A stretch of DNA of 64,000 nucleotides from assembly GCA_903862425.1 (NCBI GenBank), contig CAIOYC010000021.1:1-64000 (forward strand). The letters are read 5' to 3'. Shown here in pieces: positions 48,604 through 52,004 of this stretch (position 1 is the first letter of the stretch; the number at the start of each line of letters is the position of its first letter). This DNA is from an uncultured Caulobacterales bacterium. Its GTDB lineage: Bacteria; Pseudomonadota; Alphaproteobacteria; Caulobacterales; Caulobacteraceae. The notes beneath the pieces are model-generated. The model saw nothing but the letters and a program-made list of their open reading frames with translations. It was not told where the DNA came from and searched no databases. The position numbers and the translations under genes were made by a program.

Positions 48604-50499
<1,896 letters not shown>

Positions 50500-50625
50500 C
50501 TTAGTCTCGATACTCCTTGCGGCGGGCGGACGGAGGGCCTTCTTCGAAGCGCCCTTGGGGTCCGTCCCCAAGTGGGTTGGGTGTTGTACAAAGGCTCACA
50601 GGAACGAGAGCCGACGATGCAGCCG

Positions 50626-50653
50626 ATATGGGAAATGAGGGCGCCGCTGCAAG
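50626..50653 (-). promoter_or_regulatory. RpoH (sigma-32) type promoter of dnaKJ
   Basis: On the minus strand CTTG (plus 50650-50653), 17 bases, then CCCATAT (plus 50626-50632), followed by CGG. The alphaproteobacterial RpoH consensus is CTTG-N17/18-CYTATNT-nnG; all of -35 and six of seven -10 positions agree. Transcription would begin near 50617-50619, giving a leader of about 120 bases. Confidence 0.7.
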
Positions 50654-50888
50654 GGCGAACCCACTCCCCGCCTTCTCCACGATCAATCCGCCGCAGGAAA
50701 AGCCGTGTTATGATAGGATACGGCGCCCGGTGGCGCCGACGCTCTTTGACATCGACGACGACCGGCGACATCGAGAGCGACGGAAACGCCCGCTTCAGCC
50801 GCTTGGAGACGCGCGCCTCGTCCGGCGTAAATTGCGACCCAAAAAAGGGACGGCTCGTTCAGGTGCCCGAGTCCAGCCGGCTAGACCT

Positions 50889-50974
50889 TGTCCAGTGCGC
50901 ATGACTTTGATTTCACATGGGAAGTCTTGATTCCTGGACACTCTGGACTGTCCAGCACGAACAGAAATGTCCAG
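50889..50974. repeat. cluster of TGTCCAG sites upstream of the quinone oxidoreductase
   Basis: TGTCCAG occurs at 50889-50895, 50949-50955 and 50968-50974, and its complement CTGGACA at 50934-50940. A 13-base perfect palindrome CTGGAC-T-GTCCAG covers 50943-50955. Four exact copies plus one partial within 86 bases, ending 101 bases before the gene start, look like an operator array for an unidentified regulator. Confidence 0.5.
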
Positions 50975-51074
50975 ACGCTGATCGGAACCTTGAAACCCTG
51001 CCGCCAAGCTGAAACCCCACACCCTATCCCCGCATTGTTCCCGCATCGGGTCGATCAGCGCAGAAGGCTTGGCC

Positions 51075-52004
51075 ATGAAGGCGATACGCATCCACGAGTT
51101 CGGCGGCCCCGAGGTCATGCGGCTGGATGAGGTGGCCAAGCCCACGCCCGGCCCGGGCGAGGTGCTGATCGCGGTCAAGGCGGCGTCGCTGAACCCGGTC
51201 GATTACAAGACCCGCGAGGGCAAGTTCCCGCCGGTGAAGGCCGACCAGCTGCCCCTCGTGCTCGGCCGCGACGTGGCGGGTGTGGCGACAGCCTTCGGGG
51301 AAGGCGCCTCGGCCCTGGCGGTCGATGACGAGGTCTATGCCATGCTGCCCACCGAAGTCGGCGCCTTCGCCGAGTGGGTGGCGATCCCGGCCAGGCTCGT
51401 GGCCAAGAAGCCGAAGTCTCTCGACATGTTGCAGGCCGCCTCCGTTCCCCTCGCAGCGCTCACCGCCTGGCAGGGGCTGTTCGACCATGGCGGATTGAGG
51501 GCGGGCCAGAGCGTGCTGATTCACGGCGCCTCGGGCGGCGTCGGCCTTTTCGCCGTCCAGTTTGCCCGCGCCGCCGGAGCGCAGGTGTTCGCCACCTGCT
51601 CGGTCGGCCAGAAGGCCCTGGTCGAGGAGATCGGGGCGACCCGCGCCATCGATTACAAGAACGAGCGGTTCGAGGAGATCGCGCGCGAACTCGACCTCGT
51701 CTTCGACCTGGTCGGCGGCGAGACCCAGGACCGGTCCTGGCGGACCCTTAAGCGGGGCGGCGCGCTGATCTGCACCATGCAGGAGCCCGATCAGGGCAAG
51801 GCCGAAGCCGCGGGCGTCCGCGCCGAACGCTACACGGCCGAACCGCGCGGCGACCAGCTGGCTGAGATCGGCAAGATGATCGACGACGGTCAGGTCCGCG
51901 TGATCCTCGACAAGGTCTTCCCGCTCGACGAGGCGGCCGACGCCGAGAACCATCTCCAGAACGATCACGTGGTCGGCAAGGTGGTGTTGTCCGTGGGCGG
52001 ATGA
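51075..52004 (+). CDS. zinc-free NADPH:quinone oxidoreductase, MDR family
   Basis: A 309-residue medium-chain reductase of the QOR branch, reducing quinones or activated alkenes with NADPH. The GroES-like half has RIHEFGGPEVMRLDE and ASLNPVDYKTREGKFP, without the zinc-ligand cysteines of alcohol dehydrogenases. The coenzyme half has SVLIHGASGGVGLFAVQFA (nucleotide loop) and LDLVFDLVGGETQDRS. The ATG at 51075 is preferred over a TTG two codons earlier; AGAAGG lies at 51062-51067. Upstream TGTCCAG repeats suggest regulation by a specific, perhaps redox- or electrophile-responsive, factor. Confidence 0.9.
   Translation: MKAIRIHEFGGPEVMRLDEVAKPTPGPGEVLIAVKAASLNPVDYKTREGKFPPVKADQLPLVLGRDVAGVATAFGEGASALAVDDEVYAMLPTEVGAFAEWVAIPARLVAKKPKSLDMLQAASVPLAALTAWQGLFDHGGLRAGQSVLIHGASGGVGLFAVQFARAAGAQVFATCSVGQKALVEEIGATRAIDYKNERFEEIARELDLVFDLVGGETQDRSWRTLKRGGALICTMQEPDQGKAEAAGVRAERYTAEPRGDQLAEIGKMIDDGQVRVILDKVFPLDEAADAENHLQNDHVVGKVVLSVGG

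Follow-up and report, generated by a model that had tools for sequence, protein, structure and literature searches.

In phage lambda, the initiator O is built from a DNA-binding part, a linker encoded by the iteron array of the origin and a C-terminal part, so the iterons lie within the O gene. In phage P22, the gene for the small terminase subunit, an HTH protein, holds its own recognition array, the pac site. ParB–parS systems use a few dispersed, centromere-like sites; the parS site of P1 is asymmetric, with two groups of boxes, and the chromosomal parS site of ParB-CTP systems is a TGTTTCACGTGAAACA-type 16-mer that lies near the origin together with the ParB gene. Caulobacter also carries CcrM-associated intergenic repeats (CIR elements), originally described by Chen and Shapiro (2003), as cited in the excerpts of PMC2229807 and PMC10969869 on which we draw; the excerpt of PMC2229807 describes them as conserved between species and never intragenic.

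The array analysed here lies in a stretch of 64,000 nucleotides (the window) from a genome of 3,694,921 bases in 42 contigs (G000). Like a lambda O gene, HTH genes related to this array (seven of ten) have an array in the part that encodes the linker, and its repeat is a candidate for the cognate site; the HTH proteins scanned, however, match no O-like family, and the HTH arrays are dispersed over many chromosomal loci. Phage genes in IMG/VR that are O-like do carry palindromic GTCCAG..CTGGAC iterons in their linkers (L294:2060-2800, with PHROGs matches, and L200:3439-4137, by resemblance). An HTH gene with an in-gene array also recalls the small terminase and its pac site, yet the paralogue that matches a terminase, L049, has no array, the HTH gene that holds array E (HTH-E) is not in a phage packaging module, and there are several paralogues per chromosome with dispersed arrays. 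The arrays resemble ParB–parS and P1 parS in being few, dispersed and composed of two box groups, but the HTH proteins have no match to a ParB-like domain, their hexamers differ between paralogues in one genome, and the array motif differs by eye from the chromosomal parS consensus.

Compared with CIR elements as the excerpts present them, the arrays of G000 are alike in a length of about 110 bp, dispersal, two arms with a linker and richness in GANTC. They differ in that the hexamer is species-specific and conservation is mostly at half-sites; conservation across species was not found, the core being at chance level in 389 genomes. Arrays are also found inside HTH-family genes, in contrast to the strictly intergenic CIR elements, and those of G069, a genome from another genus, are not GANTC-rich.

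Architecture of the array

TGTCCAG occurs at 50889 (+), 50934 (−), 50949 (+) and 50968 (+), and a partial copy, CTGGAC, stands at 50943, where it opens a perfect 13-base palindrome, CTGGACTGTCCAG (50943–50955). The four copies in both orientations, the partial copy and the palindrome were all described correctly in the initial annotation. Additional sites, GTCCAG at 50871 and CTAGAC at 50881, carry the array beyond the 50889–50974 first assigned to it and set its left edge at 50871; the start of qor lies 100 bp to the right of the array (Table 1).

Table 1 Coordinates of the window array, its neighbours, its sister arrays and associated features.
Feature	Position	Strand	Remarks
Half-site GTCCAG, first in left group	50871..50876	+	Reads AGTCCAG; overlaps GAGTC (a GANTC site)
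Degenerate inverted half-site CTAGAC, between the two left GTCCAG	50881..50886	−	Alignment
Half-site TGTCCAG, second in left group	50889..50895	+	Sequence
Weakly conserved block GCATGACTTTGA	50899..50910	+	Aligned with YTAARNCNYTG in other arrays
22-bp core CTGGACACTCTGGACTGTCCAG	50934..50955	+	Two direct copies of CTGGAC 9 bp apart and one inverted; holds palindrome 50943–50955
Half-site TGTCCAG right of core	50968..50974	+	19 bp past the preceding one
dnaK, divergent neighbour, outside the system	48604..50499	−	Named from translation; start codon 50497–50499
qor, zinc-type NAD(P)H:quinone oxidoreductase-like gene	51075..52004	+	TIGR02824, below cutoff
Array A	Window, 50871–50974		Between divergent dnaK and qor; frame reading
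Array B	C8:203.6k		Between convergent genes; frame reading
Array C	C8:313.2k		Between convergent genes; frame reading
Array D	C9:202.2k		Between tandem degQ and rarA, upstream of rarA; frame reading
Array E	Contig ends C14, C42, C22		In 3' part of a gene converging on accC; frame reading
Array F, degenerate sixth array	C32:76.1k		Between divergent genes; frame reading
Second-family dispersed arrays	C33:56.3k, C42:41.6k, C9:260.9k, C9:406.8k, C8:241.1k		
Second-family arrays in HTH-family genes	C14:32.3k (L046); C33:64.4k (L048)		Short core in L048
Hairpin GGCGC-N5-GCGCC	L012:8645, L013:8187, L014:9103, L126:9085, L168:16274, L143:10073, L150:16002		

Sister arrays in the same genome

Exact copies of the 22-bp core, CTGGACANNCTGGACTGTCCAG, stand at seven places in G000, representing five distinct loci, and with up to three mismatches no match was found in this genome beyond the same arrays. 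Array F came from a 47-row listing of CTGGAC-N0-30-GTCYAG pairs, in which the nine places outside known arrays were all inspected. Names of the genes next to the arrays were mostly assigned by eye.

In the family of the window (the CTGGAC family), the left group ends about 43–56 bp before the core. It reads GTCCAG-N13-GTCCAG, two sites 19 bp apart, in A, B and E, and is an inverted pair, CTGGAC..GTCCAG, in C and D; another GTCCAG follows 19–21 bp past the core in A, D and E. An alignment of arrays A–E places the block YTAARNCNYTG 34–36 bp before the core, a distance at which no such block was seen by eye in array F. The spacers between half-sites are mostly unlike across loci. Arrays B, C and D have sequence in common to the right of the core, around a hairpin, GGCGC-N5-GCGCC, and this similarity beats 200 of 200 shuffles for each pair. 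The hairpin is found within 200 bp of seven of the ten intergenic arrays, counting both families of G000, and of none of the three intragenic ones, with 0.025 expected per 500 bp; it is absent beside those arrays of G069 and G001 that were checked. It is often flanked by A/T-rich DNA on one side.

Twelve arrays of G000 hold 34 GANTC sites in 1,368 bp, whereas the sample has 1.27 per kb; the high density arises in part because GAGTCCGG contains one; the arrays of G069 are not dense in GANTC (2 across six stretches). REP-like inverted repeats at L014:8914-9043 and L010:17527-17614, one pair of which adjoins array D, are present in congeners too.

Clustering of sites far exceeds chance

The window contains 11 copies of TGTCCAG against 6.16 expected (s.d. 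2.35), four of them within array A. For the initial annotation, it mattered that the motif be neither frequent nor evenly spread over the genome, and the counts given here agree with both points: genome-wide, the 7-mer occurs 378 times in G000 against 530 for the backwards pattern, with no enrichment, so that its clustering is the unusual part. The palindrome CTGGACNGTCCAG is found at 8 places in G000, seven of which are arrays resembling that of the window, and its reversed control at 0.

We scanned 1,198,217 unique bases of G000 (32.4%), a sample in which loci A–F were picked for their arrays and much of the rest regardless of them. At least five GTCCA/TGGAC sites per 120 bp occur at 8 places in these 1.198 Mb, all of them array records, three of which are contig ends of one duplicated array; beyond the known records, no array of this density appeared in the sample. 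By the same rule, four control pentamers gave 0, 0, 0 and 9 places, and the one with 9, a nearly twice as abundant word, had 0 places with at least seven sites, against four for the arrays. The palindrome, 7-mer, pair-listing and pentamer-control counts rule out an ordinary chance cluster, and the density of sites is far above chance, as had been claimed.

A second array family and a common module

Scanned for clustered hexamers without a supplied motif, 1.2 Mb gave 55 bursts, a good many of which are G+C-rich words. The scan revealed clusters of AGTCCG/CCGGAC (GTCCGG on the other strand) with the same spacing pattern, both dispersed and in HTH-family genes (Table 1). Two of the dispersed arrays overlap frames: at C8:241.1k the final residues of one whose hydrolase match is weak and below cutoff, and at C33:56.3k a short one without any match. 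With the first of these, arrays in coding sequence may extend beyond the HTH family.

When hexamers were ranked by clusters of at least four in 130 bp, TGGACA, GAGTCC, CTGGAC and AGTCCG came first; CTTTCC and ATAGCC were next, and CCGGAC took seventh place. Under a tighter rule, with three copies in 55 bp, GAGTCC, CTGGAC, AGTCCG and TGGACA ranked highest across the sample; in the C9 stretches alone (431 kb), the array families were not at the top of the short-range ranking. CTGGAC forms 9 clusters (eight array records and L132), a number reached by one of 461 peers of similar abundance, which is CCGGAC, and AGTCCG forms 6 (five arrays and L162), reached by two of 560 (CGGACA and TGGACA). The 12 clusters of CCGGAC are reached by three of 392 unrelated peers; this count thus does not settle the matter by itself, and the case rests on the geometry. 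Separately, a cluster of CTTTCC/GGAAAG in both orientations, within at most 60 bp and right before a frame (L117:464, C9:211.4k in G000), has the look of an ordinary operator.

The geometry was sought as a module, in which any hexamer has two copies 9 bp apart and an inverted copy within 0–14 bp. Only CTGGAC (seven) and CCGGAC (three) had this module in at least three records of G000, with five other hexamers in two. The sole hexamer in two records of G001, a genome of the same genus, was GTGCAA, and GTCTGA took the strict form once in G069; no hexamer recurred in G002 and G302. The inverted copy lies at 1 or 11–12 bp (14 in G069), distances that are about one helix turn apart.

An HTH gene family that carries arrays

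The gene of array E encodes a protein in which an HTH at about residues 5–52 is followed by a helical region, a linker and the C-terminal end, and the array is the DNA of the linker. The gene is duplicated, with copies 96% identical across 547 bp, and the three contig-end records of E presumably represent two nearly identical gene copies. The contig ends share 128 identical bases (C14:103047-103174, C42:63047-63174 and C22:1-128; one continuation is missing), where the assembly breaks within the duplicated gene. Another inverted repeat adjoins the copy on C42. By eye, the genes neighbouring array E are argS-like, accC and one for a large TPR-like protein, and no phage genes were seen around it.

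No Pfam or NCBIfam family was reported for the HTH-E protein. Members of the family match phage DNA-binding and small terminase families, the best terminase match being that of L049 to phrog_1206, terminase small subunit (E = 3.6e-6), and four of eight weakly match HTH_7 (best E = 0.0041); similarity to known families is thus weak. Of 13 genomes searched, three have relatives: G000 with eight matches to seven genes, one gene being split in two, G069 with two matches and G001 with one. In viral contigs, none was confirmed for two queries.

Linker arrays are present in E1, E2, L046, L048, L041, L044 and L042, from three genomes. The other three genes, L047, L049 and L050, all among the seven of G000, have no array of a dispersed hexamer (for L049 and L050 mainly by eye); in L047, the hexamer GCGAAC/CGAACG was tested as a suspected array word and yielded no family. 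Other dispersed repeats, REP-like or hairpin stretches, were seen by eye in the linkers of L041, L044 and L050, so the linkers may simply tolerate insertions. An element, ATCTTCTCC(C/T), stands ahead of or near the start of six of the seven G000 genes (two on C14 and those on C42, C2, C33 and C8) and also, at L168:16491 and L143:10205, within 350 bp of two dispersed GTCCGG arrays; it has 18 distinct places in the sample (20 rows).

Linker repeats predict arrays in other genomes

The linkers of the G069 HTH genes carry 9-bp repeats of TTCAGAC, and that of the G001 gene holds a direct and inverted group of TTGCAC. We set beforehand that the linker hexamers, GTCTGA in G069 and GTGCAA in G001, should be arrayed elsewhere in their own genomes, and both predictions held, in another genus and in the same genus, respectively.

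In 400,000 bases of G069, GTCTGA forms 6 clusters, two of them in the HTH genes. Of the other four, three fall in gaps between frames and the last is at the 5' end of a frame resembling an exonuclease, probably ahead of the true start. None of 537 equally abundant hexamers has 6 clusters, and six have at least two. In 398,125 bases of G001, GTGCAA forms two clusters, one in the HTH gene and one a double array between two genes (L333 16933-17270); the two clusters have the 18-mer CAATTGCACCCTTTGCAC in common, and 12 of 501 peers have one cluster and none has two. With two clusters, GTGCAA has no place in the general rankings of G001.

Under one and the same rule, G069 reached a best score of 24.5 and G000 one of 12.7; the best in G001 was 7.7 and belonged to a G-rich word instead of GTGCAA. 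Two genomes served as negative controls. G302, which has no HTH match and was sampled at length (393,552 bases), showed no comparable family (best score 3.7), and the second, small control, 129,549 bases of G002, had a best score of 1.9.

Distribution and comparison with a congener

With at most two mismatches, the core is found in seven of 390 genomes of the family: exactly in G000, and as a single two-mismatch match in each of six others. The reversed control matched in 11 genomes, which puts the core at chance level in the 389 other genomes. Searched with a relaxed core, 84,980 species genomes (one genome per species, a set that may omit records of G000 or of a near relative) yielded 11 stretches and IMG/VR yielded 1, and none of these had more than one additional half-site within 300 bp. 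These relaxed-core counts rule out an array common to other species by descent, and core arrays appear, as far as seen in the genomes searched, to be confined to the species of the window.

Searches of plasmids and phages for homologues of the array returned weak, partial matches to two plasmid and seven phage records (best E = 0.3). Looser patterns in IMG/VR (at least 120 stretches) led solely to O-like initiators with in-gene iterons; 40 of 138 loci screened there have at least five sites in 120 bp, in a set that was chosen for such sites and is therefore not a background. TGTCCAG was absent among the literature matches listed. When long words from the three motifs and TTCAGACGG were sought in the literature, only TTCAGACGG appeared among the matches listed, by title mostly in work on Neisseria and in none on this bacterial group.

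Arrays A–E were compared with the congener G002. Its dnaK is collinear and its oxidoreductase, in the same dnaK–qor neighbourhood, is 82% identical to the qor product of the window; no GTCCAG is found on either strand in 3.9 kb of this region. The gap between the two genes is about 500 bp with the array in G000 (50571–51075 of the window) versus 825 bp in G002, which has an alkB-like frame (by eye an Fe(II)/2OG dioxygenase; L052:796-1404) where G000 has the array. The hflX–mazG gap is about 1.75 kb in G000 versus 67 bp in G002, and the degQ–rarA gap 438 bp versus 36 bp; the neighbours of array C are on different contigs in G002.

The initial annotation had placed the array, with a regulator bound to it, ahead of the quinone gene, which suggests a switch of that gene. 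The same array, however, recurs at unrelated loci, two of them between convergent genes and one in coding sequence, and the qor region of G002 is bare; across arrays A–F and G002, we found neither a related set of promoters nor conservation upstream of orthologues. The positions of the sister arrays and the congener locus without a site thus lead us to reject a quinone-responsive operator as a general explanation.

Discussion

The arrays described here keep one geometry, are dispersed over the chromosome and lie within genes of an HTH family, and hexamers read from the linkers of that family were found arrayed elsewhere in two further genomes. We favour, with a probability of roughly 0.6, the reading that the window array is a member of a dispersed family of cooperative binding arrays for HTH proteins of diverged specificity, the binder being a candidate suggested by sequence. 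Each array would be built on one hexamer per paralogue or lineage (CTGGAC here; CCGGAC, GTCTGA and GTGCAA elsewhere) and would follow a shared geometry of two direct copies 9 bp apart with an inverted copy 1 or 11–14 bp onward, a spacing that would place the sites on about the same face of the helix. The HTH protein may then bind its own array cooperatively and with looping. Cooperative binding by one regulator, which the initial annotation had proposed, fits this geometry and survives as a plausible part of that proposal, whereas a role as an operator for a quinone-responsive regulator is not supported. An HTH gene of this kind would carry its array where the linker joins the DNA-binding part to the C-terminus, and because the array is within the gene of the protein itself, the protein may mark its own gene, by autoregulation or self-targeting, and a few other loci. 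The outcome would be the marking of loci or chromosome architecture rather than control of a single promoter, which is the least certain step.

The main rival explanation, which we consider unlikely, takes the arrays for short dispersed repeats like CIR, REP or MITE elements, spread by copying to sites between genes and to disordered linkers that tolerate them; their link to the HTH genes would then be a sink effect and no specific binder would be needed. Arrays A–E do sit in DNA that is absent or different in G002, and the hairpin and shared sequence of B, C and D, with the hairpin also beside most intergenic arrays, would suit copied elements, as would the other repeats in the HTH linkers, the array-free paralogues and the likeness to CIR elements, as excerpted, in length, arms and GANTC sites. 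The spacers, however, mostly differ between loci; what is conserved is largely the sites themselves, as selection on binding, and not recent copying, would leave it. Moreover, apart from one possible exception, the intragenic arrays in the DNA that was read all belong to the HTH family, with seven genes from three genomes.

A conventional regulon, in which the arrays are operators of one transcription factor and the qor promoter is among its targets, would account for A and F in divergent promoter regions and for D upstream of rarA. It is quite improbable given B and C between convergent genes, E within a gene, neighbours that by eye have no common function and the qor region of G002 without a site. 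About six half-sites in 110 bp and an HTH weakly like the HTH_7 of resolvases recall a site of recombination or resolution of the res or att type, and TGTCYR is reminiscent of resolvase half-sites. The res site of a serine resolvase has three subsites of 25–34 bp, with inward-pointing half-sites, and an adjacent resolvase gene. Here, by contrast, the members of an inverted pair face away from each other across 1 to 14 bp, no recombinase was found among the frames read beside the arrays and HTH-E has no match to a catalytic domain, which makes such a site very unlikely. Least credible of all is a structured RNA element. Two arrays, C and D, have better folds than their shuffles (z = −3.5 and −2.3), but A, B, E and F are unremarkable (z = −0.98 to −1.76), the five loci A–E searched gave no Rfam match, D is antisense to both neighbours, and what is conserved is the sequence and not the pairing. 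Readings as a promoter, an IHF site, a DnaA box or an integron attC were dropped by eye.

Returning to binding arrays for HTH proteins, we tentatively suggest a wider, rather speculative possibility, an undescribed self-tagging system. The HTH family would be multiplying, and its active paralogues would encode an array of their recognition hexamer in their own linker and seed or maintain it at a few chromosomal loci; the hexamer would change between paralogues and lineages while the geometry of 9-bp direct and inverted copies stays. Such a system may stem from a phage packaging or replication protein and may now anchor or partition regions of the chromosome, possibly with a readout through CcrM methylation of overlapping GANTC sites.

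A dense cluster of sites before a gene, as at qor, need not be the operator of that gene. If HTH proteins do bind these arrays, the linker would spell the recognition sequence of its own protein, and specificity could be read from the genome, with no need of experiments, and traced between paralogues. The arrays would then also add a new type of site scattered over the chromosome, and a simple way of testing the function of such sites, in what, judged from gene content, appears to be the Caulobacter group, a main model for chromosome organisation.
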